54,487 bases of DNA from a virus (IMGVR_UViG_3300023178_000060:1-54487); one strand, 5' to 3'. Shown: positions 18,101 to 47,700, counted from the first letter of the stretch. Numbers and translations are program-made. Notes: generated by a model not told the origin, from the letters alone.

Positions 18101-18573
18101 CCATCATTAATTAATGATTCACCATTCCATTCTTGCAAACCCCATAGTGTTGTACTTGTGTCAAACCAATACGCACCGTCCATTGGCGCTGCACCTGGTG
18201 CTGTAGGTGATCCTTCTAACTCTGCCAAATCAATATCGGCTCTAACTACATAGGCTCTATTTGCTATACCAAGAAAACTGTAAGCTGTTTGCAATCCATA
18301 TTCATTTAATTCTGATCCATGGATAGGATTATTATTATTGTCTGTTTTAAAAATAGGATCTCCGAATGTATCTACTAAATCACGCTGAGATGTTAGTAAA
18401 TAAGGAACACCTGCGTTGCTGGCTAAAGTTCCTGCTGCTGTTCCTGATCCTGATCCGTTAGGTTTGTTGCCTGCTGTTGCAACAAAAATACAAGGTAATG
18501 TACCTGGTTCTGCTGGGGTATAAAAACTTTCGTCAACGACTTTAACTTCTACACCTGGTGATACTAGTGCCAT
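15139..18573 (-). CDS. 18: Tail sheath protein gp18, enlarged
   Basis: This 1144-residue protein is the contractile tail sheath subunit. Its start MALVSPGVEVKVVDES and its C-terminal third (GLTAFIVGDSPFR at about 920, VYYPSG, VVPASHMMLRTIA, AYPWFAPAGTRRG, NPITFITGAGLVCFGQKT, and the helix ARLIIYLRSQLK near the end) are standard sheath features; the last residues YVDIAIEPVKAIEFIYIPLR form the C-terminal handshake strand region. T4 gp18 has 659 residues, so roughly 480 extra residues lie in the variable middle, between about 130 and 760, rich in Thr/Asp/Ser beta structure. These extra domains would project from the contracted or extended sheath surface. A likely late box ACTAAATA (18609-18616) and an AGAGGAG ribosome site precede the gene. 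Confidence 0.95.
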   Translation of the reverse strand: MALVSPGVEVKVVDESFYTPAEPGTLPCIFVATAGNKPNGSGSGTAAGTLASNAGVPYLLTSQRDLVDTFGDPIFKTDNNNNPIHGSELNEYGLQTAYSFLGIANRAYVVRADIDLAELEGSPTAPGAAPMDGAYWFDTSTTLWGLQEWNGESLINDGQVFTNKEPIVITDETETSNTGSLSVNGFAGYIPAKTVGSIGQYAVVATSTLNRAFYRNRSGDWVLVGSDQWVKSWPTAKGTNVFEFAGAQAAALEITLYQEDGTTHAESGQAVSIALNPGDTAADVALTINTVYVAGNVSAQAVDGRLEIYTTGRFSDGGWVSHMTITNSPSADIDGFAEIGITADTGTPTIATRYIPKLQISKHTSIPEFKALDTRPRPTGSVWLKTTIPNLGAKLDVKKWNDSTKLWEGQDINIYPSNAEALYEMDRSGGGVNLLTGQLYALSDVGKGFRPTATIKLYRRDNIAPTTVTGTKISVGSLTAGTKTFTISSTDNGSLAMSSPVTVSFDPTGQASDATLLASAISDAGVDNVSATVTSQNKVQILHSLGGEIKFVDTDGSLAEAGFTPFVDENNGTPNLYYVLGTDNTTSPSELQASLWKVLTYTASDNEVLGATEDQTLWYNSIVDEVDILVHNGNEFVGYLYDGSSGQSATASPYYDADETAQTDPNGPIVSASIPLTQSDGTALVTGDLWIDTSDIDNFPVMYKFNAGRTDIPLVRRWFTVDTTDQTSENGVLFADARYNTAGANSDMPGEIADLLYSDYMDPDGPDPALYPKGMLLFNLRRSGFNVKRFRKNYVNTATKNIRYNDEPMDGYVPDRWVTESGNQEDGSGSFGRIAQRKVVVQALQALVNSNEEIRDDESRLFNLMACPGYPELIGELNTLNYDRGLTAFIVGDSPFRLEATGTNLNNWATNVNNATEDNDTGLVSSDPYMAVYYPSGFTSDNFGNNVVVPASHMMLRTIALSDQVAYPWFAPAGTRRGNITNATASGYITSEGEFKSLAMNEGLRDTLYSNNVNPITFITGAGLVCFGQKTRQLTASALDRINVARLIIYLRSQLKVLAKPYLFEPNDKITRDEIKQQVETLLLELVGLRALYDFLVVCDESNNTPARIDRNELYVDIAIEPVKAIEFIYIPLRIKNTGEISGL

Positions 18574-18682: not shown

Positions 18683-19021
18683 ATGAGACCTTTGTGCATC
18701 TGTGGATTTAGACCTGCAGCTATTAATTATGTAAAAAATGATAAGATATACTATAGAAAAAAATGTGAGCGTTGTTTAAAACACAATAATGTTGCGGTAG
18801 GAATACCTTTATGGAAGCAACGGGGATATTTAAAAAAAAAATTATGCGAAAAATGCGGATACAAAAGTCAATATGACGAACAATTTAATGTTTATCATAT
18901 TGACGGAAATTTAAAAAATTGTAGAATAAGTAACCTAAAGACAATTTGTGCAAATTGTCAGCGAATTCTTCATAAAGAAGGTATAAAATGGAAGCAGGGA
19001 GATTTAATTCCGGATTTTTAA
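18683..19021 (+). CDS. HNH-type zinc-finger endonuclease-like protein
   Basis: A 112-residue plus-strand protein lying between gp18 and gp13, both transcribed the other way. Zinc ligand pairs are visible: Cys5/Cys7 with Cys28/Cys31, and Cys55/Cys58 with Cys89/Cys92. The HNH core is HIDGN (His72, Asp74) with Asn84 in SNLKTICANC and His97, matching the usual H-x-D-G-x(n)-N-L-x2-x-C-x2-C pattern of HNH nucleases. Free-standing HNH genes between T4-phage structural genes are commonly homing endonucleases. The last 4 bases overlap the gp13 stop (convergent), so no terminator fits. The ribosome site is weak. It may cut DNA of related phages lacking the insertion; a regulatory DNA-binding role is possible. 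Confidence 0.8.
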   Translation: MRPLCICGFRPAAINYVKNDKIYYRKKCERCLKHNNVAVGIPLWKQRGYLKKKLCEKCGYKSQYDEQFNVYHIDGNLKNCRISNLKTICANCQRILHKEGIKWKQGDLIPDF

Positions 19022-22473: not shown

Positions 22474-22911
22474 ATGCGTGAAATAATATGTAGTGGTGCT
22501 TTGATATTTGCGAAATCAACAAATAAATTTCTTTTCTTACATCGTGCAAAAGGTAAAAATAACAATTTATGGGGTTTAGTTGGTGGAACTAACGAAGATA
22601 ACGAAACACCTTGGTCTGGTTTGCAAAGAGAAATAGTTGAAGAAATAGGAAATATTGAAATAGTAAAAAGTATACCTTTAGAAATATTTGTTAGTAATGA
22701 TGACCATTTCTTATTTCATACGTACCTGTGCATTGTAAATGATGAATTTATACCCAAATTAAATGACGAACATGACGGATATGCATGGGTTTCCTTTTGT
22801 AAATGGCCTAAACCATTACATCCAGGACTTCGTAATACACTTAGGACAAAAATTAATCAGGCAAAATTAGAAACTGTTATAAAATTAATAACTCATTTAG
22901 ACAATAGATAA
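22474..22911 (+). CDS. NUDIX hydrolase
   Basis: A 145-residue NUDIX protein that would hydrolyse a nucleoside diphosphate linked to another group (for example NDP-sugar, dinucleotide, or oxidised NTP). The NUDIX box runs about residues 38-61: G38-x5-E44-x7-R52-E53-I54-V55-E56-E57-I58-G59-N60-I61, with all catalytic acidic residues kept; the residue after the final Gly is Asn rather than hydrophobic. Strands before the box (ICSGALIFA, FLFLHRA) and a helix after complete the fold. It follows gp15 and is one base from a cupin gene, in an otherwise structural operon. The substrate cannot be read. No clear ribosome site precedes the ATG. Confidence 0.92.
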   Translation: MREIICSGALIFAKSTNKFLFLHRAKGKNNNLWGLVGGTNEDNETPWSGLQREIVEEIGNIEIVKSIPLEIFVSNDDHFLFHTYLCIVNDEFIPKLNDEHDGYAWVSFCKWPKPLHPGLRNTLRTKINQAKLETVIKLITHLDNR

Positions 22912-31593: not shown

Positions 31594-31601
31594 TATTTAT
31601 G
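31594..31601 (-). promoter_or_regulatory. Late box CATAAATA upstream of the 134-residue gene
   Basis: Minus-strand CATAAATA, 26 bases before the ATG at 31567, overlapping the carbamoyltransferase stop region. It separates transcription of the structural gene from the enzyme pair. Confidence 0.5.
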
Positions 31602-33414
31602 CCGTATTTTTTATAAAAATAAGTTTAGATAATTCTGGTAGATACAAATATTCAATATTACTGTTGATTAAAGTCCTTATTGCATCATCAAATGTTTCGA
31701 CCAATGGTTCGCCTCCTAAATTAAAACTCGTATTAAACAAAATTGGAATATTTGTTTGTTCATAAAACTCTTTAATTAGGTTGTAAAAATGTAAATTTTG
31801 TTCTGCTGTAACAGTTTGAATCCTACAAGTTCCATCGGTATGGATAATTGATGGAATTTTTTCTGCTGTTCCTTCTTTACAATTTACAGCATACATCATA
31901 AATGGTGAATTTTCCATACCTCTAAGGTCAAACCATTCGTGAACATGTTCTTCAAGGATAGTTCCTGCAAATGGTCTAAAATATTCTCTATTCTTTACTG
32001 TATTAACAAAATCTTTTCCGTCTTCAAAAGTTGGATCAAATAATATACTGCGATTGCCTAATGCTCTTGGTCCGTTTTCGCTTTTTCCTTGGAAAATACT
32101 TACAATATTCTTTTCTCTAATTAACTGTATAACTTTTTTGTAATCTGCATCAATTATTTCAGCATTTACACTTTTTAACTTGTCCTCGATATCATTTATA
32201 GAATAATTGTATTTTGGTCCATAGTAAAGCGTTTCTGCTTTAGGATATGATTTACTTTGATTTACTTCATTCCAAAATAATAGAGCTGCTCCCATTGCTG
32301 TTCCGGCATCGTTACTTACCGGTTCTACATATATGTTTATATTTTCATCTCTAAGAGATTCTAAATAGTGATAGTTAGCTACACAATTTAATCCGTATCC
32401 ACCGCTTATAACAACATTTTTTCTACCTGTTAATAAAACTGCATGCTTAATAAATTTTGTAACTTGGTCTTGCGTTTCCATCTGACAAGCATACGCTAGA
32501 TCTCGCCTGTTTTGCAGTGTTGTTACATCACCCTCTATATTATCCTGTAAATAATCAAATAAATTAGCATTTACTGAGGCAGCCATTGGATATAAAGGAC
32601 AAATTAAATTTCTATTTGATATAGGCACAAGTGAATTTGATTCAAATAGTTTTGGTATCTTAGGATTTTCATTACCATACGGAAACAAACCCATAGTTTT
32701 CCCAGCTTCAATAGCTGAAAAATTACAATATTGCGTCACTGCTTCGTATACTTTAACTATACCGGCCCTGTCAGTAACCCAAGCTTGATGTGTCCCTTCT
32801 TCTATAATATTTCTAGAATCTAAATCATCATAATAACTGGCCACAATAGGTTCTTTACAACCATAATTTTTAAAAATTGTTTTTAGGTTATTAGGATAAG
32901 AACAATCTATTATAGATTCAGTTTCAAATACGGTAATAGGGTCTCCTCCGTATTGAATATTAAAAAATGTTCCGCAACCATCAACAACTACTGCAACAGC
33001 ATCGTTGTATCCTGATCTGTAAAAAGCACAAGCTGCATGTAATTTATGATGGATACCACTTAAATCAATTACTTGAGGATGGTTCCTATTATCTATGTTT
33101 ACATTCGTTTCTATTAGTCCTAGCTTTCTAGCTAACCCTGTATATATATCATCTCCCGAATAATCTATTGTTCCTGCAGTGTTGTGTAAAGGAGTAGTAT
33201 GAGCAACTAGTAAGTAATCTATTTTATCTGTGTATTCTTTAATTTTGACAATAGAAGCAAGTGGTCCTCCATCATATTTTTGCCTACTTAGTCTTTCTTC
33301 TTCTATAGAAAATAAGATTTCTCCATCTTTTAACAAGCATACTCCAGCATTGTGCCCTCTTGTAATTGCAGCAATATATCCAGTTTTTAATTTTAAATCA
33401 GAAAATAAATTCAT
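31597..33414 (-). CDS. Carbamoyltransferase (NodU/CmcH/TobZ family)
   Basis: A complete 605-residue O-carbamoyltransferase; this family uses carbamoyl phosphate and ATP through a carbamoyl-adenylate to place a carbamoyl group on a sugar or other hydroxyl. All family motifs are readable: TRGHNAGVCLLKDG (about 18-31) with EEERLSR; the metal-binding HHKLHAACAFYRSGY (His122, His123, His126); DGCGTF at 145; SGGYGLNCVANY; NDAGTAMGAALLFW; GKSENGPRALGNRSI (about 440-450); FRPFAGTIL; HTDGTCRIQTV; and NTSFNLGGEPLVET near 563. It overlaps the GT9-like gene upstream by 4 bases (ATGA), so the two are coupled. The acceptor is unknown: a virion or host glycan is likelier than DNA, since no DNA hypermodification gene is visible here. 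Confidence 0.95.
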   Translation of the reverse strand: MNLFSDLKLKTGYIAAITRGHNAGVCLLKDGEILFSIEEERLSRQKYDGGPLASIVKIKEYTDKIDYLLVAHTTPLHNTAGTIDYSGDDIYTGLARKLGLIETNVNIDNRNHPQVIDLSGIHHKLHAACAFYRSGYNDAVAVVVDGCGTFFNIQYGGDPITVFETESIIDCSYPNNLKTIFKNYGCKEPIVASYYDDLDSRNIIEEGTHQAWVTDRAGIVKVYEAVTQYCNFSAIEAGKTMGLFPYGNENPKIPKLFESNSLVPISNRNLICPLYPMAASVNANLFDYLQDNIEGDVTTLQNRRDLAYACQMETQDQVTKFIKHAVLLTGRKNVVISGGYGLNCVANYHYLESLRDENINIYVEPVSNDAGTAMGAALLFWNEVNQSKSYPKAETLYYGPKYNYSINDIEDKLKSVNAEIIDADYKKVIQLIREKNIVSIFQGKSENGPRALGNRSILFDPTFEDGKDFVNTVKNREYFRPFAGTILEEHVHEWFDLRGMENSPFMMYAVNCKEGTAEKIPSIIHTDGTCRIQTVTAEQNLHFYNLIKEFYEQTNIPILFNTSFNLGGEPLVETFDDAIRTLINSNIEYLYLPELSKLIFIKNTA

Positions 33415-34358
33415 TTTTGTTTTTTTCCTAATATAGCGTTGATGGTGTAATCTTGGATTTCAGGAGTCATAGCCATAATTGTCTCATGTTTTCGATCAAT
33501 CCTTTCATCCATTGTTATCCTAATTGGACTATACTCTCTTTGGAATTCACCCAAGTCTAAAATATTAAAAGTTTTTTCCTTAGGATATGATACGTTAATT
33601 GGAAATGTAGAACCTATAACCACAGTTGACGGACAACTAACTGCATATGCTAGATGTTGCCCTAAACTATCGCAACCAAAAAAATGATTAGACTGTTTTA
33701 TAACTGCTGCCCACTGTCGTAAATTTAAATTTTCTGGTTGGGCAATATTGTCTTTGCATCCAAATGTAGATGTGTCTAATTTCATTTCTGACATTAATAT
33801 AACAGCAAAATGTTTGTCTTGTAATTTTTTAATTAAAGACTTTAGATCAGCATATTCTATACTTCTAGAAGTACTATCTACGAACGATCCATCTATGTGC
33901 TCAATACCTCTACCAAATGGTTGAACAACAATAATTTTTTGTTTATTTAATGTTTTTTTAATTTCGCTTGTTAACTGCCTACCTAATAAAAGTTCATGCT
34001 TAGACAGTTTGAGTGTAGGTTTAGGTAAATCACGTATCCCTTTATTATTAATTTCTATATCAAAAGCTTGGGATAAACTGCATTTTTGATTATAATATTC
34101 CCAAATCCTATAAGGTTCTAAACTAACAATACTCCTATTTACAAGCTGATCTTTGAACAAATTTTTGTGCCAAATATCGTAAGTACGATGATCTAATGCA
34201 GGATGGCCTTTGAAAAATTCAGTCCCACCTTCGCATACTATAATAAAATCTTTATCAGTTGATTCTTGTTCGTAAAGTTCAAATGCAGGAACAGAACAGA
34301 TAACCCTGCCTGCTCCGCCATTTATAAAAAAAGCTTTTGATCTTTCCATATTCTCCAT
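33411..34358 (-). CDS. GT9-like glycosyltransferase (heptosyltransferase fold)
   Basis: A 315-residue protein with a GT-B, family 9 pattern: an N-terminal Gly-rich loop FFINGGAGRVICSVPAF (10-26), equivalent to the GGIGD...P motif, and a C-terminal donor-site motif FFGCDSLGQHLAYAVSCPST (227-245) with IGST following, equivalent to the G.DSG..HLA...G.P...LFG.T signature. A VVQPFGRG segment (144-151) opens the C-terminal domain. Family members move heptose or related sugars from ADP/NDP donors. The first ATG (34356-34358) has no ribosome site; the fourth codon ATG (34347-34349) follows GGAG with a short 3-base spacer, so the true start may be there. Coupled to the carbamoyltransferase. Divergent sequence; donor and acceptor unknown. 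Confidence 0.75.
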   Translation of the reverse strand: MENMERSKAFFINGGAGRVICSVPAFELYEQESTDKDFIIVCEGGTEFFKGHPALDHRTYDIWHKNLFKDQLVNRSIVSLEPYRIWEYYNQKCSLSQAFDIEINNKGIRDLPKPTLKLSKHELLLGRQLTSEIKKTLNKQKIIVVQPFGRGIEHIDGSFVDSTSRSIEYADLKSLIKKLQDKHFAVILMSEMKLDTSTFGCKDNIAQPENLNLRQWAAVIKQSNHFFGCDSLGQHLAYAVSCPSTVVIGSTFPINVSYPKEKTFNILDLGEFQREYSPIRITMDERIDRKHETIMAMTPEIQDYTINAILGKKQK

Positions 34359-34411: not shown

Positions 34412-35053
34412 TTAGATGTTGCGATCTGGCAATAACCACGGCCAATCAATTTTCCAGTGATCTACATCTGCCATTTGAGTTTTTACATCTTTCATGCCCT
34501 GTAATGCTTCTTGTAAGACTGTTACATCTTCTGGTAGATATTCATCACTGTGATCAGCTAATTCACTTTCTACTGTTGCAATATGTTCATCTACACCTGC
34601 CCAATAATCCTCTTTAGAAATCATATGAGTCCTATAACTAGGCTTGATATATTGTCCGTTTTCATATTTTAATTGTAGATGATTATACACTTCTGTAACA
34701 ACATTATCTTGTGAATATACATATCTATATTCTTTACCGTTTGGTAATGCTTCTACATAATCATCTACTGGATCATGCGTATACTCTTCTGTGAGATATG
34801 CAGCTTCCCAGGGATTTTCATTAGCATCTAAGGTCACAAAATAAATATTTGGATCGTTCTCTGTATGTTGTGACATGTTAATTTCATCTAAGGTTGTATA
34901 CGATCCAGAAATATACTCTATATTTTTTGATACTTTGTTAACTGCTAAAACATGGTATCTGTATCCGTTGTACATGCAATTAACTGTTCTATTTTGAGTA
35001 ACTATACCTGAATATGGTGCATCTGGTATAACTGCTGTAAATGCTTTTTTCAT
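34412..35053 (-). CDS. Conserved protein of unknown function, virion context
   Basis: A 213-residue soluble protein. The N-terminal half looks beta-rich (FTAVIPDAPYSGIVTQNRTV, YRYHVLAVNKVSKNIEYIS, NIYFVTLDANENPWE, YRYVYSQDNVVTEVYNHL); the C-terminal half is an acidic helix pair (SKEDYWAGVDEHIATVESEL and VTVLQEALQGMKDVKTQM) ending WKIDWPWLLPDRNI. I do not recognise a functional family. It lies directly downstream of the third Cys-rich gene (11-base gap) and upstream of the glycan-enzyme pair. Its helical tail might act as an oligomerisation or chaperone segment; this is guesswork from composition. Confidence 0.65.
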   Translation of the reverse strand: MKKAFTAVIPDAPYSGIVTQNRTVNCMYNGYRYHVLAVNKVSKNIEYISGSYTTLDEINMSQHTENDPNIYFVTLDANENPWEAAYLTEEYTHDPVDDYVEALPNGKEYRYVYSQDNVVTEVYNHLQLKYENGQYIKPSYRTHMISKEDYWAGVDEHIATVESELADHSDEYLPEDVTVLQEALQGMKDVKTQMADVDHWKIDWPWLLPDRNI

Positions 35054-35064
35054 ATTTTTCCTTT

Positions 35065-36063
35065 TTAATTTTCTATAAATCTTATCCTAACAACACCCAT
35101 GCCTCCACGGCCGCCTGAATCTCTGATACTGTTACACATCATAGAACCTGGTGCTCCCCAAGCAGGTGGCGTATACGGAGTACAAGAATAATTGTGTTCA
35201 TAACATGAACACTGCCGTTCACTCCTCCAACAAGCCGATCTTGGTATTCCTCTAGACGGGCTGTGTGACATCATTCCATAACTTCCACCAGCTTGGTTCA
35301 TTGCCATTCCTGCTAATGCTGAACTACGTGCATCCTCCATTCCGGTATACATCATTCCTCCTCCGCCACCATCTGCGTACATGCCCGGAGGCGGTGCTGT
35401 AAAGTAATATGTTTTACACTTAGTATTATGGAATCCACCACCGCAGCAATAAAAGATTGCTTGGCTTATGTTACCTGGGCAATTTATATCTCCACCATAC
35501 GCATTTGCTTGCCATGATCTTGATCCAGATAAATTACAAACTCTTCCACAAAAATCACTAAGGCCAAATCTATCATTACAGAATCCTAATGCTACATAAC
35601 AACAATAGCTCGAAGTTGTACTTGTTTGGCAGATAGAGTTACCACCTAAGCCTCCTTGGGCACACATACAACCATTACCTGTAGATCCAATCCAACACAG
35701 ACATGTAGCATCACCGCATCCAGCAAAGCATAATGACTCACTTTTGAGAGATATTGCAGGTTTTGCATAAATGTAACTTGATGAATTTACAGCTATTGAT
35801 TTTCTTGAATATGCTCCAGAATTTCCAGGTAATCCTACTCCGCAACAGCACATCCGTCCTTGTGATCCACCAGCTCCCCAAATCTCAATAACTGCAGTTC
35901 CGGCTCCGGGAGACTTCCAACATATGCTACCGTCACCATTGTGCTGGCTCCGCCAATTTGCAAGGACATTTCCATTTGTATAGACCCAAAGTTCACCTTG
36001 TTCCAAATTATGTTCCATTGTGTCTGTTATAGAGCGTTCGTATACTAGTTGTCTTAAATTCAT
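35065..36063 (-). CDS. Cysteine- and glycine-rich virion-type protein, copy 3 of 3
   Basis: A 332-residue protein with about 25 Cys, the first 45 residues plain, then a Gly-rich-domain start AVIEIWGAGGSQGRMCCCGVG (given as AVIEIWGAGGSQG then RMCCCGVGLPGNSGAY). Further motifs are CMCAQGGLGG, YGGDINCPGNIS, a GGGGG loop, QCSCYEHNYSC and a C-terminal DSGGRGGMGVVRIRF. It shares all of these with the two upstream genes, so it arose by tandem duplication. The Gly-rich IEIWGAGG start is typical of phage tail fibre Gly-rich domains; the cysteine load is not. It may be a fibre-tip adhesin with many disulfides or bound metal. Three bases separate it from copy 2. Confidence 0.75.
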   Translation of the reverse strand: MNLRQLVYERSITDTMEHNLEQGELWVYTNGNVLANWRSQHNGDGSICWKSPGAGTAVIEIWGAGGSQGRMCCCGVGLPGNSGAYSRKSIAVNSSSYIYAKPAISLKSESLCFAGCGDATCLCWIGSTGNGCMCAQGGLGGNSICQTSTTSSYCCYVALGFCNDRFGLSDFCGRVCNLSGSRSWQANAYGGDINCPGNISQAIFYCCGGGFHNTKCKTYYFTAPPPGMYADGGGGGMMYTGMEDARSSALAGMAMNQAGGSYGMMSHSPSRGIPRSACWRSERQCSCYEHNYSCTPYTPPAWGAPGSMMCNSIRDSGGRGGMGVVRIRFIEN

Positions 36064-36066
36064 TTC

Positions 36067-37083
36067 TTATCCTGTTTGTGTATTTCTATCAGTGAAATCT
36101 GGTTCTCCCTCAGGAACAAATTTTATCCTTACCATTCCACTACCACCCCGTGTTGCATGATCTCTTACACCTGAACACTGACTAGGCGGTAATCCTGGAA
36201 AACCGGGAGGTACATATTCTATGCATCCGTGATGTTCATAACAACCACAATGCCTGCTGCCTTTCCAACATCTTGTTTCAGTACCTCCGCCCGAAGGCAT
36301 TTTACTCGCACCATTGAGGGCATAGACATACTGGAACGGACCATTTCCTGACCAATTTGAATGCATTGTATTTTCTTCAATAGGGAAATTTAATTTAACA
36401 CCTTTGTCTGAAAATACTCCAGGAGGTCCTGAAATTGAATATGTAATACTGCATGGTCGATTTGGATGGTAACAGTGCCATACGGTGCAACTGAAAGATC
36501 CTGGACAATTCACATCTCCACCATATGCTTGAGCAGGATTAAAATTCATACAACTTTGATGATAGTTACAGGCAATTCCGCATCTATCGCCGCATATAGT
36601 CCTACAATAACCGTTGCCTCCAAAACAACATACCCCTGATGTGGTAGTTGAGCAATAGCTTACACCACCTCGACCACCTTGGGCACACATGCACCAATTT
36701 CTATCTTGGTATCTAGGATCACTTGAGAGATAGAAGAAACAACTTGCTTCACTGCACCCCCTAAAACAAAGATCAGTTGAGTTGTTGCAGGATTTACCTG
36801 CATATCCACATAGATAATCACCTGCATTGTAGTAGAAGGTTTTCCTAGCATATGCACCTGGGTTGCCAGGTAATCCGACTCCACAACAGCACATTTCCGC
36901 CCCAGATCCTCCTGAACCCCATATTTCAACTGTCATTTTTCCACTATTTACACATACCCACTTGATATTGTTACAATAATTTACATATCCTTGGGGAGCG
37001 TATGTAGAAATATTTCCTGTTTCTAATCTTTCGTATTCAAAAAAGTCAATCTTTTTTTGAATTAAGTCTGATAAATTTGCCAT
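36067..37083 (-). CDS. Cysteine- and glycine-rich virion-type protein, copy 2 of 3
   Basis: A 338-residue paralogue with about 29 Cys (over 8% of residues). Key marks are TVEIWGSGGSGAEMCCCGVG (split as TVEIWGSGGSGAE and MCCCGVGLPGNPGAYARK), CMCAQGGRGG, VCCFGGNGYC, CGDRCGIAC, YGGDVNCPGS, CWKGSRHCGCYEHHGC and DHATRGGSGMVRIKF. The copy differs from its neighbours in the middle, where extra Cys appear and a segment KGVKLNFPIEEN replaces the Gly-rich GGGG loop. No signal peptide is seen, so disulfides would form only after lysis unless metal is bound first. Copy 1 lies 6 bases upstream and copy 3 three bases downstream. Confidence 0.75.
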   Translation of the reverse strand: MANLSDLIQKKIDFFEYERLETGNISTYAPQGYVNYCNNIKWVCVNSGKMTVEIWGSGGSGAEMCCCGVGLPGNPGAYARKTFYYNAGDYLCGYAGKSCNNSTDLCFRGCSEASCFFYLSSDPRYQDRNWCMCAQGGRGGVSYCSTTTSGVCCFGGNGYCRTICGDRCGIACNYHQSCMNFNPAQAYGGDVNCPGSFSCTVWHCYHPNRPCSITYSISGPPGVFSDKGVKLNFPIEENTMHSNWSGNGPFQYVYALNGASKMPSGGGTETRCWKGSRHCGCYEHHGCIEYVPPGFPGLPPSQCSGVRDHATRGGSGMVRIKFVPEGEPDFTDRNTQTG

Positions 37084-37089
37084 GTTTAA

Positions 37090-38028
37090 TTAATTATCCT
37101 TTACAAACCTGATCCTTATAGCTCCGGATCCACCTCTACCGCCATGGTCTCTAACACTAGTACATGGGTGTGCTGGAAAACCTCCATGTCCTGCTGGTGT
37201 ATAATAAACACATCCTTCATTTTCGTAACAACCGCAAGCCTTGCTACTGCCCCAACAATACGTCCATGGATTGCCTTGGCTAGGATTCCTACTTGTTGCT
37301 GCAATGACATATGAATGTTCAGGTCCGCCACCTGACCACTTCGTTGTAACATTATCGGCACCTGGTTGTACCATCATACAGGCTCCTCCAGTACTGTATT
37401 GGTAGGGAGGTCCAGCAATAACTTCAATATATTGACACGGACAAGAGCTCCTGTGAGTATTTGAGAACAAGCAAGAAATATTAGAAGGACAATTAATGTC
37501 TCCTCCAAAAGCTAAACCACACCAAACACATCCTCCTGCCCAAGGTGTATTTTTTATTATACCAGCAGGCATGTGGCTATCTCCAATTTCACATACTGAC
37601 CATCCACCTTTACCACCTTGGGCACAAATCACAGCGGTTGTTGCTTCATTATCAAATGTGTAAAATAGACAAGTTGGTGCCGATACACCTCTACATGATG
37701 TAGCACTAGCATTACCGCATGATTGTCCTATGCATCCACAGATATATGAAGTTGTATAATTGCTAGGAGTGAAACATAATGTTTTCCTTGCATAAGAACC
37801 TGAATTTCCCGGTATGCCGTAACCACAACAGCAAGTTCTAGCTCCTGATCCACCAGCTCCCCATACTTCAACTATAGCTCTACCTGATCCAGTAGGTTGC
37901 CATTTTATTTGGGGAGCATATCCTAAATCCATTGCGGGAGCATATCCCCATATTTCACCTTTTTCTAATCCTACATCTACATAGTTGTCTAAATTCTTAG
38001 ATTGGACTAGTTGCGACAATTTTGCCAT
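37090..38028 (-). CDS. Cysteine- and glycine-rich virion-type protein, copy 1 of 3
   Basis: A 312-residue protein with about 23 Cys, first of the tandem triplet on the transcript. It carries AIVEVWGAGGSGARTCCCGYG (split AIVEVWGAGGSGART and CCCGYGIPGNSGSYARK), ICGCIGQSC, VICAQGGKGG, FGGDINCPSNISC, SCPCQYIEV, CWGSSKACGCYENEGC and DHGGRGGSGAIRIRF. The Gly-rich domain core matches phage fibre Gly-rich domains; the repeated CCC, CGC, C-x-C patterns are distinctive. The start MAKLSQLVQSKNLDNYV parallels MANLSDLIQKKIDFFEY in copy 2, so the N-terminal attachment part is conserved as well. Downstream of a small structural gene with the TATAAATA promoter, so probably co-transcribed from there. Confidence 0.75.
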   Translation of the reverse strand: MAKLSQLVQSKNLDNYVDVGLEKGEIWGYAPAMDLGYAPQIKWQPTGSGRAIVEVWGAGGSGARTCCCGYGIPGNSGSYARKTLCFTPSNYTTSYICGCIGQSCGNASATSCRGVSAPTCLFYTFDNEATTAVICAQGGKGGWSVCEIGDSHMPAGIIKNTPWAGGCVWCGLAFGGDINCPSNISCLFSNTHRSSCPCQYIEVIAGPPYQYSTGGACMMVQPGADNVTTKWSGGGPEHSYVIAATSRNPSQGNPWTYCWGSSKACGCYENEGCVYYTPAGHGGFPAHPCTSVRDHGGRGGSGAIRIRFVKDN

Positions 38029-38040
38029 TTTTTCTCCAAA

Positions 38041-38370
38041 TTATGCAGATACAAACCAACCAATGCCTGCAACTCCGGTATAAACGAGAGTAACAGTTGT
38101 ACCGTTTACGTTTAGGATAAGGTCACTATCTCCCATTATTTCTCCACCGTTTGCATCAACTGTAACATTGTTAGTTGTTAAAAATTGACCTATGTCTAAA
38201 AATTGCACAGTATCATTTTCTAATAGCGTACCTGGTGCAGGTAAAGTTACAGTAAATGCAATTGAGCTGCTGTCAAGTAACATTCTATCATTAACTTTTG
38301 CTACATAATTATTAGATACTTGCCGAAAAACAGCACCAGCTGTTCCTGTAGTCGATATATATCTTCCCAT
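38041..38370 (-). CDS. Small beta-rich structural protein (109 residues)
   Basis: The sequence begins MGRYISTTGTAGAVFRQVSNN and continues with VAKVNDRMLLDSSSIAFTVTLPAPGTLLEND (pieces: VNDRMLLDSSSIAFTVTLP and APGTLLENDTVQFLD), then NVTVDANGGEIMGDSDLILN and a C-terminal GIGWFVSA. It resembles the short fibre-type beta-domain proteins of marine T4-like phages, in which a TLPAPGT...ND.V.F.D segment is followed by N.V.V..NG..I.G. A perfect T4-type late box TATAAATA (38389-38396) lies 19 bases upstream with an AAGGA site, so it opens the Cys-rich operon. Virion role is by context and family look. Confidence 0.7.
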   Translation of the reverse strand: MGRYISTTGTAGAVFRQVSNNYVAKVNDRMLLDSSSIAFTVTLPAPGTLLENDTVQFLDIGQFLTTNNVTVDANGGEIMGDSDLILNVNGTTVTLVYTGVAGIGWFVSA

Positions 38371-38388: not shown

Positions 38389-38396
38389 TATTTATA
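38389..38396 (-). promoter_or_regulatory. T4-consensus late box TATAAATA upstream of the Cys-rich operon
   Basis: Exact T4 late consensus TATAAATA on the minus strand, 18 bases before the ATG at 38370 with AAGGA between. It is the only exact T4 consensus late box I found between genes and heads the small gene plus the Cys-rich triplet. Confidence 0.7.
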
Positions 38397-38712
38397 AAGT
38401 TGTTGTCTCTATACCAAAGGCCATTGCAGAAACATTCGCAGCAGACGACCAAACAATAATGCGTTTTTCAGCATCCAAAACAATACCTGTTCTTTCTAAT
38501 ACACCTTTTGGCATTATTTCACAATCATATTCTATATATTCTGCAAGCGCAGGAGTGACATCAGCTGCTACTGCTACCCTAACTGTGATAGGTGCATTTC
38601 CTCTATTACAAAAAGACACTGTAGCAACAGTAAATGTGTCTACAGGAACTTGATATAAAGTTGTAAGAGTATCTAATGCTAAATCTGCTACTCCAAGTCT
38701 ACCAGTTGCCAT
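38392..38712 (-). CDS. Small structural protein (106 residues)
   Basis: A compact beta-rich protein: MATGRLGVADLALDTLTTLY, then VPVDTFTVATVSFCNRGNAP, ITVRVAVAADVTPALAEYIE, PKGVLERTGIVLDAEKRIIV and MAFGIETTTL. The layout, strands with an SFCNRGNAPITVRVAV motif, is that of a small immunoglobulin-like virion decoration or fibre-associated domain that I recall from marine phages. The 110-residue protein at 50217-50549 has a related pattern (ATLILETDLARTMTIIGLSL type strands, similar length) and may be a distant paralogue. It lies 13 bases after the giant 2007-residue gene's start region on the map side and overlaps no neighbour. Confidence 0.7.
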   Translation of the reverse strand: MATGRLGVADLALDTLTTLYQVPVDTFTVATVSFCNRGNAPITVRVAVAADVTPALAEYIEYDCEIMPKGVLERTGIVLDAEKRIIVWSSAANVSAMAFGIETTTL

Positions 38713-38725: not shown

Positions 38726-41700
38726 TTAATTTTTAAGTAAATAATTCATTGCAACAGGAACACCGTCTACTCCTTTTTTGTAATAGACTTTTTGCTCCAT
38801 GTTGATTTGATTTCCTGTTACAGTTGTAATCTCTGTACCTGTAATTAAAATATCCCCAGCAGTAATACTATTTACGTTAAGTGTAGACGAACCGCCTCCA
38901 ATTTGTGACGTAATGTACGTCCTAATAGCTTTTTGTGTAGGAACAATTTCATCACTATTTGCAGTAAACGTTCCGTCGGTACTGAATTCTGTAATAGTTG
39001 CTCCTGTTTGTCCAAGTCCAAGTTCTCCAAGTGACAATTCATTCAAACCGCTTATATTAAATGCATCTGCATTTAACGTTGCGACACCAGTTGATTGTTC
39101 AACTGAGAATAAATCTCCAACTCGGAAATTTCCATCTTGATCTGTTGACGTAAAGAATACCCTACCACCAGTGCTTTCTAATGTTTCGTTGGCAGGAATA
39201 GGTTCTTGTAACGGAATTCCTGGATAATTTGTTTTAACAAAATTACCAGTTCCGATATCAAGGAAATCATGTCCTGTCAATCTAATTTGACTATATCGAA
39301 TCCTTAGGGTTAAATTTTCATTATTTTCTGGTGCTTCAGATATTTGAATATCTGGTGAAACTTGTAATTGAGCTGTAAATGGAGGTTGATCTCCTAGTTG
39401 ACCAGTTCCTAATAAAGATCTTACAACTACTAATTTAAATACCTGTCCAGGTAAATGATCAAACACTATATTCGAACCGGCTAACGGAATACCTGATAAA
39501 TTTTGTACTTGTATTAAGTTACCGGGTTGATAAAAATCAGCGTATCCGTCTCCTACAATTTCTACAGTTGCTGTTGTAAAATCATTACCTCGTCCATTAG
39601 CTGCCCATAGAGGTTGTGTAAGTACACCGTTTGCTATCCTAGCCTGGGTTGGCGCATCAGTTACTGCTTGATTACCTAGTGCAATATTGTTAGGATCAGT
39701 GATTGTTATTGTTGGTTCGGCTGTATATCCTTCTCCTGGATCCCAAATTAATATTTTGACAATTTGCTCATTTTCAACAAATGGTCTGCCTTTTGCGTTT
39801 TTGGTGTAATCTCCAGGATATGTATCCGAATCGCTAAACTGAATTAGTGGCTCTACTGTATAGACTGTAGTAGCATCTAACGTTGCTTCTATAGATCTAC
39901 CAGCTACCATCTGATCCCATCCTGCAGTTCCGTCACTTATTTTCACAATATCAGCAAGCTTTGTATTTTCATTGTAATTTGAAATTTGACCATACTGTCC
40001 TGTACCTTTACCTCCGGTAATATAAATTGATAAACCTATAACTTGTGAAGCTAACCCAACATCTGTATTAGATAATGTAATTTGAGTTGTTGTACCATTC
40101 TGAGCACTGTTTGTAGCAAAATAATAACCTTGACCACCAAAAATTCCACTAGAGTCATCTAAATCAAGCATACGTACTTCGAACACACCTCCGTCTACTG
40201 TTTGAGCTGAATCAATCACATAACCAAAACCGTCTCCTACAACAGTTATTGTTGTGTTTGCAGCGGTAAATTCTTTTCCTGCATTCAAATATTCAAAAGC
40301 AATTATTTCATTACCATCAGTTAACACTCTATCAACAACAGGTGTAAATGCATAGTTATTTACTTGAGCAGTAACTGGAATTTCTGTAATATCTACACCT
40401 TCTGAAACTGATCCAAAATCTCCATAAGAATTATTACCGTTAGTTGCTCTAACTTTTCCACCATTTTCTGCTAGATAGCCAATATGACAATAATATGTAA
40501 AAACAGAAACTAATTCTGACCTTCCAAGATTTGTTACCCAATATCCTATTCCGTCACTTAATATCTGTGTAAAATCGTTTGCAACTATAGAATCATTACC
40601 ACCTGCATGGATTTCACCGTCAACCTTCATACCAATACAAGCAGTACCAAAAGTACTGACATTTTGTACATATGGTGATTTTGTCCTAATCCAAGGTTTT
40701 GTATCTTGTGGATTCCAACCTGGATCTAGGCTTACATATGCCCCTGCTAAAGGTCTTGCTGTGCCGTTGGGATTTACCTCTGTTAAACCAGTGATACTTT
40801 GATTCACTGTTGTTCCATCACTCCTGCCATCTAACGCATTTAGAGAACAATTTCTTAATCCCGATCCATTGTGCATTAGGAACATGTTTTCAAGTTTAGA
40901 TCCTGTAACAGCATTTGCGTAATATATTCCTGCATAAATTGACTTGTAATTTCCTGGGTAAATTAAATCATATTTTATTGCATCAATATAAGAATTTATA
41001 TCTCTTTCACATGACCCAGTATTGTATGCTAGATTCATAGTCATTGATCCAACTGCTGAATTCCAGGAAATTGGAGCACTATCTGTCCTTGCTGCTTTTA
41101 CAGTAAAATTATTTGCATCAGTTTTACTATGTACAAAATATGTTGTATTTGCTTGTATTTCACTACCGATGACATTTGAAAACTTTACTGCTGTCCCAAC
41201 TTGTATCCAATCTGAGTTTGTTCCATCTGTCTGTACATCTGTACCACTTAAAGATTGTATTGTTGCTGTAAATGTATTTGCAATGTATGCATTCATTTCG
41301 CTGACAATAAATTTTCTATTTTTTTCTATAGTTTCAACTGCATATGTATGATCTGTATCTGTTAATGGTTCATTACTGCCTGTCATTATAGGTTCAGTAC
41401 CTATGTTGTTTACTTTGTTGTTGATATAATCTTGAATTGTTGAAATCAATGCTTCTGCTTTGGTGCCAGGCCCGCCTATAGATAGATTACTTAAACTTGT
41501 GTCTAAATAATCAACAGCTCTGAGCGTATCAGATAATTGATAATTTAACACTGTTTGTGCAGATGTTGTAACCTTGTAATAAGATATTCCTGATATACGA
41601 GTTTGATAATTTGTATCTAATGCCATATCATATACAAGAGCGTCTATCATGTAGCCTGCATCTCTCAAACATGTTGTTTTATTAAATTCAAGTGTAGGAT

Positions 41701-44700
41701 TTGCCCTTTGGATATAACTTACTGCTTCATTTTGAATTCTATTTTTTCTATCAAGTATAGTTGCAACTGAAGATTGGATTATTGAGCTAACATGAGTTAG
41801 GGCTGGATATACAACTGCAGGTAGGTTATCTAAAGTACCGTCTCTAATTACATCTTCTACAATGTTTATCATAGATGAGGCATAAGCTGCTTCAGTCACT
41901 GTTCCTACATTGCCTGGTGTAGTAAGTAGAGTTTGTCCAGGATATGTCCCCTCTACAACATCTGACACATAACCAGCTAGAGTATCATACACATCAGCCG
42001 TAGGCAATCTTTCATTAGGTTCTAAAGTTAATGCTAGACTATCATAATAATTTCTTGCAATGATTATACTCGCCCATCTACTGTTGTATTGTACATCATA
42101 GCTTGCAGCATCTAAAATTAATGCAACATCTCTTTCACATGCTGCTGCTTTAATTGAATCATAATCAAAATTTTCCCAAATACTTCCAGCAGTTGCTGCT
42201 GCAACTTGAGCGTTGATGTAGGTTTCTATTTCAGAAAATAAGAAATCTTTATTTACTTGTATTAATTCACGAGCATACAACCGTTCTGTTACAACTCCAG
42301 GATCAGAAAATGAAAGCGCAGTGGCAGAATCTACACCATTTTCTATAATATTTTTTATTTCAGTTGCACCAGTTGTAATTTTTGTAGATGCAGTTGCATC
42401 TCCTACCGTACCTGACACACCGAGTGTATATTGTGTTTCGCTGTTTCCTGTTGTCGGTGTTATCGCAGTATTAGTGATTATATTAGAAATAAAGGAAGAC
42501 ATATGTGTCAAAGACTGCAAACTATATGTAGTGTCTGAAATATGAGTTATACTTTCCGACGGATAGATACTTGTAGATCGAAGTTCATCACCTACAACAG
42601 CAGTTTTTTGCGGAACAATCATAGGTAATGTTTCTTCATATTTTCCTGTTTTTATAAAAACTGTGTTATTAGGTATATATTCTTTTGCTAGATTGTCTAT
42701 GTTTTCAGCTGTAAGAGGTTGTATAATAATCTGTAATAAATTTTCAATCCTAGTTTGAGCATCTTGTTCTTCTAAATAATTACTATCCTTATACTGTATT
42801 ATTGTATTATTAGCATCAGTGTAATCTAAATTACTAATTACTGCATTTACTATCACTATCATCTGTTGTATTGATGCAACTAATTGTTCATTTTCATCTG
42901 CTATTGCTGCTATCAATGAACCATTATCAAAATACGATAGCGTAGCAAGGCGTATTTTTTCATTACCACCATGTCGCATGTCATAAATTACTGCATCTAA
43001 TATTAACCCAATATCTCTCCTGCATGATTCTATATTATCATTAGTGAACCCACTCCATATTCCATTACCTGCTGTAATTTGTGCATCAACCCAAACTACA
43101 ACTGCATTTTGGATAAAAGCTCTGTTTACTTCTAATAAATATGTTGCTTCCGAAAACAATGGGCCTTTATCTATTTGCTCGAGTGCATATCTAATTGTTT
43201 TAAATGGATGGTTTATAGTTCCGCCATATGTAGGTAACGGTTGGTTGATCCCATTGGTGCCTTCTACATATACTACATGATTTATTTGACCAATGTATTT
43301 CCATTCAGGAGCAGTGCCGTCAGCATTAACTGCTAAAACTTGGCCAACTTTTCCAATTGGTAGCCTAGCTGGACCTACACCGCTGTAATAAACAAGATCT
43401 CCTTGCGTAGTTAAAACGTTATTTTCAGGACCTCCTGATAAGATATCCCAGTATGTAGCACCAGTGCCAAACCCAGTGGTTTGATCAGGTCTATTTTGAT
43501 CTACAGTATCATCTGCTGTGTGCCCTAATATACATATATAAGAATTGTTACCATATCTAACAGAATCTCCTAAATCATAGACAGTTGCATTTGTCCATGA
43601 GCTCTTCCAATAAATACCTGAATTGAGTCTTTCCCAATACAATGTATTTGGCGGCTTTTGATTTTGATGATCTTCTATGCATAGATATGTATATCCACCT
43701 ACTCTAACTACATCTCCTACATAATAATCCTGGAGTGAACTATCTTCTCCCCAATCTCCCCTAAATCTAAATCCAGTTGAAAAAAGTTCCCATACGTCCG
43801 AATTTTCTGTTGGTACTTTATTTGAGTGTAATTGATTAGTTACATATACATATCCTCCATATGTAACCGTGTCTCCTGGTTGATACTTTTCAATCTCTGA
43901 CCAAGAATTTTCAAATTCTAAACCTTCAACAAATTGCTGCCAATTTAAACTATCAGACGAGAATATATTGCTATTATGATATTGTGTACAAATCCATATC
44001 CCACCACCTTTTTTGACTAAGTCATTTTTCTTGTACCTATAATTAGTTTGCCATTCACCTGTATAATCAATTCCTTCATGGAATACATCCCATTTGTTTA
44101 TATCTGCTTCTAATCCTAAATCAACATCAGCATTGCTCAAATGCCCTGTGTTACACAAATAAATTATTCCACCATATTTGACGAGATCTCTTTCTGCATA
44201 TCTTGTATCAGTACTCCAACTAGACGTCCAGTTTAAACTAGAAGAATAAATTATCCATTTATCTGCTTGTGATTCAAGTCCTGCTTCTACAGTGTCAGTT
44301 GAAGTATGATGTTCTATACAAAGGTATATTGTACTGTTATATTTTACAAGATCATTGACCTTGTAAACAGTCGTAACAGTCCAATCTCCCTTCCAGTCAA
44401 AATTTTCACCAAAAGGAGTCCATTTTTCTAAATCAATTACTAATCCATCATATACATTTGTTGTACTTTGGTGTTCAGTATTGGCTATATATTGTTTTCC
44501 ACCATATTGTACAATATCGTTAACTCTATAATAGGTAGATACAGCCCATTCTCCTCTCCATTCTTGTCCATCTGAAATGCTATTCCAGGATGATGCAAAA
44601 TCATCTGCAAAAACAGAACTCGTATGCCTAGCAACACAGACATAAGTGTTACCGCCATATTTGACTAAATCATCTTTAAAATATTCAGTGTTTGTTTGCC

Positions 44701-44749
44701 ATTCATTTTTCCAAATAAATTTAATTCTACCTAATCTAATTTCTGCCAT
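38726..44749 (-). CDS. Giant fibre protein (2007 residues) with N-terminal chitin-binding-like repeats
   Basis: Residues about 10-445 hold eight repeats of about 50-60 residues with pattern W.....Y...D.V.YGG..Y.C...H.S......W, as in CBM5/12-type carbohydrate-binding modules. Residues about 500-1300 hold four helical C-x-RD modules (SCRRDIGLILDA, AACERDVALILDA, TTCLRDAGYMIDA, GSCERDINSYIDA). About 1296-1456 is a beta-helix-like segment (GNDSIVANDFTQILSDGIGY and FTYYCHIGYLAENGG) shared with the 1697-residue gene. The C-terminus has GHDFLDIGTGNF, FTSTDQDGNFRVGDLF and a trimeric-fibre-type tail (EIVPTQKAIRTYIT) also shared. Late box GATAAATA at 44774-44781 lies 25 bases upstream. Likely a long tail adhesin recognising glycans. 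Confidence 0.88.
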   Translation of the reverse strand: MAEIRLGRIKFIWKNEWQTNTEYFKDDLVKYGGNTYVCVARHTSSVFADDFASSWNSISDGQEWRGEWAVSTYYRVNDIVQYGGKQYIANTEHQSTTNVYDGLVIDLEKWTPFGENFDWKGDWTVTTVYKVNDLVKYNSTIYLCIEHHTSTDTVEAGLESQADKWIIYSSSLNWTSSWSTDTRYAERDLVKYGGIIYLCNTGHLSNADVDLGLEADINKWDVFHEGIDYTGEWQTNYRYKKNDLVKKGGGIWICTQYHNSNIFSSDSLNWQQFVEGLEFENSWSEIEKYQPGDTVTYGGYVYVTNQLHSNKVPTENSDVWELFSTGFRFRGDWGEDSSLQDYYVGDVVRVGGYTYLCIEDHQNQKPPNTLYWERLNSGIYWKSSWTNATVYDLGDSVRYGNNSYICILGHTADDTVDQNRPDQTTGFGTGATYWDILSGGPENNVLTTQGDLVYYSGVGPARLPIGKVGQVLAVNADGTAPEWKYIGQINHVVYVEGTNGINQPLPTYGGTINHPFKTIRYALEQIDKGPLFSEATYLLEVNRAFIQNAVVVWVDAQITAGNGIWSGFTNDNIESCRRDIGLILDAVIYDMRHGGNEKIRLATLSYFDNGSLIAAIADENEQLVASIQQMIVIVNAVISNLDYTDANNTIIQYKDSNYLEEQDAQTRIENLLQIIIQPLTAENIDNLAKEYIPNNTVFIKTGKYEETLPMIVPQKTAVVGDELRSTSIYPSESITHISDTTYSLQSLTHMSSFISNIITNTAITPTTGNSETQYTLGVSGTVGDATASTKITTGATEIKNIIENGVDSATALSFSDPGVVTERLYARELIQVNKDFLFSEIETYINAQVAAATAGSIWENFDYDSIKAAACERDVALILDAASYDVQYNSRWASIIIARNYYDSLALTLEPNERLPTADVYDTLAGYVSDVVEGTYPGQTLLTTPGNVGTVTEAAYASSMINIVEDVIRDGTLDNLPAVVYPALTHVSSIIQSSVATILDRKNRIQNEAVSYIQRANPTLEFNKTTCLRDAGYMIDALVYDMALDTNYQTRISGISYYKVTTSAQTVLNYQLSDTLRAVDYLDTSLSNLSIGGPGTKAEALISTIQDYINNKVNNIGTEPIMTGSNEPLTDTDHTYAVETIEKNRKFIVSEMNAYIANTFTATIQSLSGTDVQTDGTNSDWIQVGTAVKFSNVIGSEIQANTTYFVHSKTDANNFTVKAARTDSAPISWNSAVGSMTMNLAYNTGSCERDINSYIDAIKYDLIYPGNYKSIYAGIYYANAVTGSKLENMFLMHNGSGLRNCSLNALDGRSDGTTVNQSITGLTEVNPNGTARPLAGAYVSLDPGWNPQDTKPWIRTKSPYVQNVSTFGTACIGMKVDGEIHAGGNDSIVANDFTQILSDGIGYWVTNLGRSELVSVFTYYCHIGYLAENGGKVRATNGNNSYGDFGSVSEGVDITEIPVTAQVNNYAFTPVVDRVLTDGNEIIAFEYLNAGKEFTAANTTITVVGDGFGYVIDSAQTVDGGVFEVRMLDLDDSSGIFGGQGYYFATNSAQNGTTTQITLSNTDVGLASQVIGLSIYITGGKGTGQYGQISNYNENTKLADIVKISDGTAGWDQMVAGRSIEATLDATTVYTVEPLIQFSDSDTYPGDYTKNAKGRPFVENEQIVKILIWDPGEGYTAEPTITITDPNNIALGNQAVTDAPTQARIANGVLTQPLWAANGRGNDFTTATVEIVGDGYADFYQPGNLIQVQNLSGIPLAGSNIVFDHLPGQVFKLVVVRSLLGTGQLGDQPPFTAQLQVSPDIQISEAPENNENLTLRIRYSQIRLTGHDFLDIGTGNFVKTNYPGIPLQEPIPANETLESTGGRVFFTSTDQDGNFRVGDLFSVEQSTGVATLNADAFNISGLNELSLGELGLGQTGATITEFSTDGTFTANSDEIVPTQKAIRTYITSQIGGGSSTLNVNSITAGDILITGTEITTVTGNQINMEQKVYYKKGVDGVPVAMNYLLKN
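40381..40860 (-). repeat. Shared beta-helix segment, copy in the 2007-residue gene
   Basis: Homologous to 47270-47760 at DNA level, including an identical 32-base block at 40569-40600 equal to 47467-47498. It codes for NDFTQILSDGIGY and YYCHIGYL. Confidence 0.8.
43414..44719 (-). repeat. Eight CBM5/12-like repeats in the 2007-residue fibre
   Basis: Residues about 10-445. Each unit has a W near the start, Y..(G/N/D)D.V.YGG..Y.C in the middle and H.S plus W.(P/I/D/E) near the end. Confidence 0.75.
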
Positions 44750-44786: not shown

Positions 44787-47700
44787 TTAGTCCTGCAACA
44801 TTGCTGCTAAAAAATGCCCGTCAACACCAGCTAGAAGGTTGTCTTTTACCTCAAAAATGATAGCTGTTTCTGTACGAGTTGTTACATTGTTTTCTGATAA
44901 TACTACTTGTGCAGCAACTAATTCGTTTGTTGTCGCGTTGGCTCCGCCGCCTGATACCCTTGATTCTATATAAGCTTTTATTGCAGCTTGTGTTGGGACT
45001 ATATTGTTAGAATTTGCAGCTAATAATTTATCTTTTGAAAATTCTCTAATGATGACAGCAGTACCACCTATTTGAATCCCTCCTAAATTAATTTCATTTA
45101 ACCCTCCTAGATCAAACTGAGATGCACTTATAGTTACTACACCAGTAGATTGTTCTACCTTAAAGAGTTCACCTACCCGGAAATTTCCATCTTGATCTGT
45201 AGAAGTATAAAAAACTCTTCCTCCTCCACTTGCTACAGTTTCATTGAAGGGTTGTCTTGCATTAAGAGTTGTTTCTCCTTCAAGATATAAATCTGGATAG
45301 TCCGTATTTGTGAAATTCCCAGTTCCTATATCTAGAAAATCGTGCCCTGTTAATCGAATTTGACTATATTTTTCTCGTATTTCTAACCTTGATAAATGCT
45401 CAACACTTTCTGTTATATCTATGCTAGGTGCAATTTCAATTTCAGCGTCATATGGTCCATCTCCTAATAAAGAATTTATTCTAGATAAACTAAATTTTTC
45501 GCCTGGAAGTGCAGAAAAATCTAAATTTGCTCCTGGACTTGGTATTTTTGTTAAGTTTGTTATCTTAAATTTTCTACCATTTTGATAAATTTCAGCAAAA
45601 CCATCGCCTGTTATTTCTGCTGTAATAGTTGTATAACCTTGTCCTCTACTAAACATTTCTGGTTGAGATAATACTCCGGATCTTACAAATAATTGCAAAT
45701 CTGCATCTGTGGTGTTAGCATTGTCTATTATATCTATAATTGGTGTTGAATTATAACCTCCGCCGACATCATACAACACAAGTTGCTGTATAACCCCTCC
45801 AGCAATTTGAGGCCGAATTACTGCTTTTGATCCTGTTTGTATTTTATTCCAGGTATTAGCTGAAGAATTAGTAATTAAGAAAAATCCATTACCATATGAG
45901 CAATCCGTCCAACTTGATAGTTGGAATAAAGCAAAAGTACCCGCTGTATCTGAAGTTAACCAATCTTTTCCATCTTTACTTAGAGAGTATGTGTTGTTGT
46001 TACTACCATCAATTCCACATGTAATAAAAACTCCATTACCATAGGCTACACGTTTTCCTACCACTGGTAAGGTAGTATTATACCATGTATCGCCGTCAAA
46101 ACTGTAACATGCTTCTGATACTCCAACTGCAACAAATCTGTTGTTACCATAAGTGATATCTGCAATATCTGTAGTCAGAGGAAATGCTGTTGTAGAAATA
46201 CTCCAACTCAAACCACTATCTACTGAAAACTGTATTTCTGGAGAAGGAGCAATTTTTGTTGCAACCAGTATTAACCTACTGTATTTTATACAAGTCCAAC
46301 CATTTGATCCTAAAGAAAAAAGTGTCCAATTTGCGCCGTCATCTGCTGAATAAGCTACATTACCAGCTGTGCCTAATACCCAAATTTTTTGATCTTTATC
46401 TGTAGTTACATCATTCCAAGTATCTGTTGCTGGTAATACTATTTCCTGCCAACCATTACTTTCTGTATATTTTAATAATATATTGCTTTGATTTCCGCCA
46501 TAAGAATTTACAGCCGCATACCAACTTGTCATTGTACCAGCAATGTTGGAAATGACATATCCTCCTATATTTGAAGTTACTGACCAATTAACACCATCAT
46601 TTTCTGTTATAGCAGAATTTAGTGTGCTACTTCCGTCAGTCATAGCTAACCATTTGCCATTACAAAACTCTATAAAACTCCATGTAAAACCTCCTGGAGG
46701 TGTTAATGAAGATAAAACTCTTGCAGGATCACTTATACTGACACATGGCTCTATCACATATCTTGTAGTATCATTTAAAGCTGATTCTATTGGCCACCCT
46801 GGTTGGAAATGGTCCCATCCAGCAACACCAGTTGTTTCTTTTTCTACATCTGCGATAAAAGTCCCTTCATCATAGGCTGTAACTTTAGCATATTGACCTA
46901 CACCTAATCCTGCCTTAATAATTATCCTTTGTCCTACAATTTCATCGGTTGTAATTGTTTCTGCGTTTGATAATCTTATGTTTGTAGTGGTTCCTGTAAC
47001 AGCAGTGTTTTCCCGTTCGGTATAATTAGCACCTCCTGGCAAAGTAGACATATCTGCAGAAATTATTCTTACATTGCTAATTGCATTATATCTAAATTCA
47101 TCATAATATCCTACAGCTCCAAAACCTGCTCCTCCGAATGAAATTGCAGCATTTGTATAATCTTGACCAGCATGAGCATAAGCAATTGCTATTACAGTTT
47201 GTTGCGTAGTACCAAATGTAATAGCTTCTCCAAATTGTGCTTCGTTTGTTCTATTATCTATATCTGCAGTGACAGGCGTTTCGTTTTCATCAAATCCTTC
47301 AGCAACTGATCCATAATCTCCATAGCTGTTATTTCCATTCGTTGCACGTAAGATTCCACCATTAGTACATAGATATCCAATATGGCAATAATATGTAAAC
47401 ACTGACACAAGTTCTGATCTACCTAAATTGTCTGCCCAATAGCCTATGCCGTCACTTAGTATCTGAGTAAAATCGTTTGCAACTATAGAATCATTACCTC
47501 CATCATGCAGTGCTCCGTCAATTTTCATCCCAATACATCCATTACCAAAAGTGCTAACATTCTGTATATATGGTGATTTACTTGTTATCCAAACTGACTG
47601 ATCGCTTGTGTCTGATCCGGGATCTAAACTTACATATGCACCTGCAGTCGGTCTTCTAGTAAAAAATTCATTTTGTTCTCCAAGCGTGCCATTCAAGCCT

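Follow-up and report, generated by a model that had tools for sequence, protein, structure and literature searches.

A tandem set of three cysteine-rich paralogs predicted to form a tail fiber tip in a T4-like marine phage

Introduction

The virus record IMGVR_UViG_3300023178_000060:1-54487, the whole 54,487-base stretch of which is here referred to as the window, contains three adjacent genes (s1, s2, and s3) whose products are unusually dense in cysteine. This locus raises three questions: what the proteins do, why there are three of them, and what becomes of their cysteines. A useful point of comparison is Pam3 gp24, a trimer that combines a helical domain at the N terminus with a TNF-like domain and a receptor-binding head rich in glycine, and that needs the chaperone gp25 (PMC9608196). 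According to the same paper, the tail fibers identified to date are elongated trimers (PMC9608196).

The source of the triplet is a T4-like marine phage. The window carries a T4-type terminase (2406-3986), a T4-type Gp23 capsid gene is present in 12/12 large related contigs tested, and the window's sheath protein (15139-18573) is closest to the sheaths of jumbo phages, PA5oct and Atu_ph07 among them. The structural gene region of the window also encodes a NUDIX-domain protein (22474-22911, plus strand) and a protein resembling the N-terminal part of the TnsA endonuclease (7041-7478, minus strand).

Results

We examined the three genes, which lie on the minus strand in the same frame, separated by intergenic gaps of 6 and 3 bases. 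As originally predicted, they encode adjacent Cys-rich paralogs: s1 (37090-38028) specifies 312 amino acids with 23 Cys, s2 (36067-37083) 338 amino acids with 29 Cys, and s3 (35065-36063) 332 amino acids with 25 Cys. Cysteine makes up 7.4 to 8.6% of these proteins and glycine 14 to 16%. The other open reading frames listed in the window contain at most 2.1% Cys, with the sole exception of a 112-amino-acid HNH-type reading frame (18683-19021, plus strand; 9 Cys, 8.0%), which has a weak match to HNH_3 just below the cutoff. Identity to s1 is 41% for s2 and 38% for s3, and an alignment of the three contains 79 invariant columns, 13 of them Cys. The motifs CCC, CAQGG, GGD.NCP, CxCYE..C, and RGG.G..RI.F are common to all three copies. 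Details of the motifs first described differ between copies: CMCAQGG is confined to s2 and s3, with VICAQGG in its place in s1, and s1 reads FGGD where YGGD had been given. No cluster of Cys in the family is better conserved than the CCC found at codons 65-67 of s2 (36883-36891, minus strand; 98-100%). The s1 protein of the window lacks several cysteines that are conserved elsewhere in the family. The N termini follow the pattern MA.LS.L...K, in which no hydrophobic signal sequence is seen by eye, in agreement with the claim that signal peptides are absent. At a convincing E value, the sole family match is phrog_4205, whose function is unassigned (E values of 1.6e-12, 2.6e-13, and 1.7e-18 for s1, s2, and s3); searches of Pfam and NCBIfam with the three proteins gave no match.

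To obtain a view of the fold, we predicted the structure of s2 with AlphaFold2 from 114 homologs (pLDDT 84.5, pTM 0.85). In the predicted fold of this one copy, a TNF-like beta sandwich runs on into loops rich in glycine. The best structural match of the model is the Pam3 fiber (7ypx_A; VIA Z 14.3 over 195 residues), followed by the tail tip of the mycobacteriophage Bxb1 (PDB 9D93, chains Qa/Qb; VIA Z 11.7 over 191 residues, with approximately 18% identity over the aligned part). The TNF-like and glycine-rich domain of ALK/LTK is of the same fold class (VIA Z of approximately 8-9 over 150 residues), but it belongs to the extracellular region of a receptor kinase of animals, with approximately 14% identity and no shared context. 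The remaining structural matches have a Z of about 4; Foldseek searches were also run. A profile built from the family alignment found no match among solved structures, and absence of a family from the structural comparison lists does not exclude that family. Pam3 gp24 (PDB 7YPX and 7YFW) shares with the s2 model the TNF-like sandwich and glycine-rich loops, and both systems have a chaperone gene, a candidate one in the window, directly downstream. The two also differ: gp24 is the product of one gene and forms a homotrimer, whereas the window phage has three paralogs; the distal domain of gp24 is 39% Gly, whereas s1 to s3 contain 14-16% Gly overall and 23-29 Cys; and gp24 has a long N-terminal helical bundle, whereas the s2 model has only a short N-terminal helix (PMC9608196).

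We also modeled s1, s2, and s3 together as a read-through product. The best of five discordant models reached a pTM of 0.66, against roughly one third estimated for three unrelated placements, but its pLDDT was only 60.9 (31.9 for the poorest model), from an alignment of 19 rows and without a control. Read-through alignments that included single proteins and pairs were set aside, as the placement of proteins into slots was arbitrary. When compared to a single-chain C1q head, the fused three-copy model gave a weak match (Z 4.4), and this comparison with a solved structure adds little. The globular head of C1q, an animal complement protein, is a TNF-like heterotrimer encoded by three tandem genes. 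Its likeness to the tip proposed here, a TNF-like heterotrimer from three adjacent paralogs, is one of analogy only.

The surroundings of the triplet point to a tail fiber. The cassette runs in the order long tail fiber, 106-amino-acid protein, 109-amino-acid protein, s1, s2, s3, 213-amino-acid protein, GT9-like protein, and carbamoyltransferase, all on the minus strand in the window, and this order is kept at about 75/84 loci. The long tail fiber (38726-44749; 2007 amino acids; phrog_9851, tail fiber protein, E value of 1.1e-201) is the likely carrier of the tip and is found at 60/62 scorable triplet loci. Both small proteins upstream of the triplet are found at 62/62 such loci: the 106-amino-acid protein (38392-38712) is tail fiber related, with a match to a tail fiber PHROG, and the 109-amino-acid protein (38041-38370) is a tail protein, with a match to a tail protein PHROG. 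A second giant fiber gene (44787-49880) adjoins the first, and the N-terminal parts of the two share the repeat W..Y..D.V.YGG..Y.C...H, reminiscent of carbohydrate-binding repeats. Directly after the triplet, at 56/56 triplet loci with enough downstream sequence, comes the 213-amino-acid protein (34412-35053; 1 Cys). The window's own copy matches phrog_9740 with an E value of only 0.015, and searches of Pfam and PDB with its family returned nothing credible. However, 42/57 of its homologs match phrog_9740, and the protein occupying this slot in Synechococcus phage S-SSM7 matches both phrog_9740 and tail fiber assembly PHROGs. We therefore regard the 213-amino-acid protein as a candidate tail fiber assembly chaperone, as in Pam3. 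At two loci (L062, 10047-11414; L080, 11021-12388), the triplet is followed by two tandem homologs of this candidate chaperone. Taken together, the predicted fold, the synteny, and the tail fiber and candidate chaperone neighbors favor the adhesin first proposed, and the three proteins very probably form a fiber-tip adhesin.

The cassette ends with two enzymes, which are its best conserved neighbors (63-66% identity) and are both present at 56/56 scorable triplet loci. The first (33411-34358) resembles GT9 glycosyltransferases and heptosyltransferases (phrog_8954, E value of 3.4e-134), although its scores of 14.7 bits against Glyco_transf_9 (cutoff of 22) and 19.3 bits against heptosyltransferase III (cutoff of 170) are below the cutoffs. 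The second (31597-33414) is a NodU-type carbamoyltransferase, with matches to Carbam_trans_C (E value of 4.6e-57) and Carbam_trans_N both above the cutoff. These enzymes raise the alternative that the triplet is their substrate and receives a carbamoylated heptose-like sugar, so that the cassette would mainly serve glycosylation, with the cysteines only a scaffold. Consistent with this, both enzymes are absent downstream of the single-copy homologs (5/5 loci, over the sequence covered), and in the cultured cyanophages at loci L088, L089, L179, L180, and L181 genes annotated for the heptose pathway come after the cassette, accompanied in some by 2OG-Fe(II) oxygenase genes. The candidate chaperone is likewise absent downstream at the five single-copy loci. 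Against it, host lipopolysaccharide is an equally possible target of the enzymes, the GT9 assignment is itself below the cutoff, and the single-copy clade is equally rich in Cys. Because that clade is free of the enzymes over the sequence covered, they do not explain the cysteines, and we find glycosylation of the triplet doubtful as an account of the locus. A homolog of the GT9-like protein adjoins a tail protein gene in Vibrio phages, for example in Vibrio phage K479 (7890-8741 of locus L183).

To determine how widely the set of three is kept, we scanned viral contigs for relatives, taking the best 80 of 196 and then the best 80 of 275 stretches that encode them. Removal of redundancy left 83 locus clusters, of which 74 interior loci were used to count tandem copies: 62 have three, eight have one, three have two, and one has four. 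Synechococcus phages S-CAM1 and S-CAM3, scored as having two copies, really have three, since the profile missed their first copy. Departures from three are thus seen in the single-copy clade, at a two-copy locus, at a four-copy locus, and in Prochlorococcus phage P-SSM2, which has only a pair (36 and 36 Cys). Triplets are present in cultured Synechococcus phages S-SSM7 (29, 28, and 30 Cys), S-CAM1 (36, 31, and 25 Cys), and S-CAM3 (36, 35, and 24 Cys) and in cultured cyanophage Sf-FS3 (28, 28, and 25 Cys). In profile comparisons, the S-CAM proteins are akin to the window family over nearly their full length (99.6%), and the S-SSM7-type proteins, which also match phrog_4205, align over 49 columns only (93%). 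These phrog_4205/phrog_35878 proteins of S-CAM1, S-CAM3, S-SSM7, and P-SSM2, each with 24-36 Cys, are related in sequence and encoded in the same cassette, but they are annotated only as hypothetical proteins of unknown function, and P-SSM2 has two copies. Some loci, among them L012, L017, and L019, have an enlarged second subunit (approximately 394-418 versus 330-342 amino acids) with more Cys than its sisters. The single-copy clade (L141, L162, L168, L170, and similar loci) has 31-34 Cys and lies beside other fiber genes. A search of a genome collection gave one match, on a 15-kb contig (L090) of a Euryarchaeota-labeled metagenome-assembled genome, which is probably a misbinned piece of a virus.

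We next asked whether the three positions have separate histories. In a first tree of the main locus set, the copies cluster by position and not by contig. In a 48-row tree labeled by lineage and position, 9 changes are needed, compared to 24.9 for shuffled labels. We then ran approximately unbiased (AU) tests in which all proteins of a given slot, drawn from the main, second, and window lineages, were forced into one clade. The constraint was not rejected for slot 1, 2, or 3 (P values of 0.67, 0.47, and 0.70), and it yielded a more likely tree than the free search in the case of slots 1 and 3. Independent origins of the triplet in separate lineages, which an earlier FastTree run had suggested, were dropped after these tests. 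The slot pattern and the AU results are consistent with one ancient triplication whose order has been kept since; with the deep branches poorly resolved, these trees stop short of proof. All three copies appear to be under purifying selection, with dN/dS values of 0.11-0.17 against the nearest relative. The number and order of copies are mostly fixed, and, together with the dN/dS values, this leaves the proposal of a variable set unsupported.

An ordered set of three kept in most related phages suggests a fiber tip built of three different subunits. The recurring count of three and the positional orthology lend indirect support to the hetero-oligomer proposed at the outset, for which we put the chances at about even. 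The alternative is that s1, s2, and s3 each form a homotrimeric adhesin like Pam3 gp24, with a receptor of its own, the three being either stacked on one fiber or carried on different fibers. Pam3 gp24 is itself a homotrimer (PMC9608196), the members of the single-copy clade would have to self-assemble, and all three copies retain the bulk of the framework of Cys and Gly. However, a number and order fixed over deep divergence is a poorer fit to interchangeable adhesins, one candidate chaperone usually serves all three genes, and the copies show purifying selection and not rapid change. We therefore consider separate homotrimers somewhat unlikely.

We then turned to the cysteines. Whether their positions are conserved had been named in advance as one point on which the original prediction could fall, and conserved they are: in an alignment of 217 proteins, Cys accounts for at least 80% of the residues in 24 columns. 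Between pairs less than 50% identical, Cys is the most conserved residue (77% kept), ahead of Gly (69%). Such high and strongly conserved Cys content in proteins from a reducing cytoplasm could reflect metal binding, with Zn or Fe-S sites in a metal-stabilized or redox-active tip or coat, and the random parity of Cys number fits this as well. Zn and Fe-S sites usually carry the motif CxxC. In the family, CxxC pairs occur at half of expectation (323 observed versus 652 in shuffles), whereas CC is enriched 1.35-fold and CxC 1.6-fold over shuffled expectation, a pattern unlike that of typical Zn or Fe-S proteins. Furthermore, searches of PHROG, Pfam, and NCBIfam with s1 to s3 gave no match to a metalloprotein family. 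Given this pattern and a predicted fold that is that of a fiber tip, metal binding by the cysteines, and with it the suggested metal-binding coat, is disfavored, and we hold it to be very improbable.

Pairing of the cysteines was examined through odd and even Cys counts. Among the 217 proteins, 111 have an even and 106 an odd number of Cys; the totals per triplet are odd in 33 and even in 30. Only the single-copy homologs, with even counts in 8/9, fit the odd/even test, and complete intrachain pairing is possible in that clade. Given the odd counts, many members of triplets must have some Cys that either stay free of a partner or find one elsewhere, and the odd totals mean that full pairing of Cys inside one 1:1:1 trimer is impossible in approximately half of the phages. 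Paired loss of cysteines was rejected as a guide to disulfide partners, the correlations being weak and confounded by relatedness. No DsbA homolog was found in 12 large relatives by a search whose control was positive. Disulfides are, on balance, probably present in the virion, if by a modest measure, and a redox-hardened tip is plausible.

Discussion

Our results lead us to a reading of the locus as a paralogous fiber-tip adhesin, most likely a hetero-oligomer, with loops held by disulfides formed after lysis, a combination to which we give somewhat better than an even chance. Under this proposal, s1, s2, and s3 would be adhesin subunits with the TNF-like and glycine-rich fold of Pam3 gp24, the TNF-like sandwich forming the core of the trimer and the long loops forming a distal receptor-binding head in which most of the approximately 24 conserved cysteines of each subunit would sit. 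The tip, most likely a heterotrimer with one each of s1, s2, and s3, would fold with the aid of the adjacent candidate chaperone and be seated on the end of the 2007-amino-acid fiber via the 106- and 109-amino-acid proteins. The cysteines would be reduced in the host cytoplasm, and disulfides forming in oxic water after lysis would staple the head. A stricter version would have an obligate 1:1:1 heterotrimer, folded reduced by the chaperone, locked by disulfides within and between subunits upon release into oxic water, and possibly decorated with a carbamoylated sugar by the two neighboring enzymes; in this full form we think it unlikely to be correct.

The triplet is undescribed in the papers we searched and presents a known fold in a new guise. 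No paper on it was found in this literature, which mostly left out subscription papers, nor was any proteomic, structural, or binding record of a member of the family. The cyanophage proteomes compared in one published study are those of S-SM1, S-PM2, and Syn9 (PMC3037559).

A tip made of three kept paralogs would, if true, be a new way to build a phage fiber tip. When and how the dense, conserved cysteines become oxidized is a testable question for a protein whose assembly presumably takes place in the cytoplasm. Since relatives occur both in many virus contigs and among the cultured phages of Synechococcus and Prochlorococcus, this question can be approached in a phage in hand.
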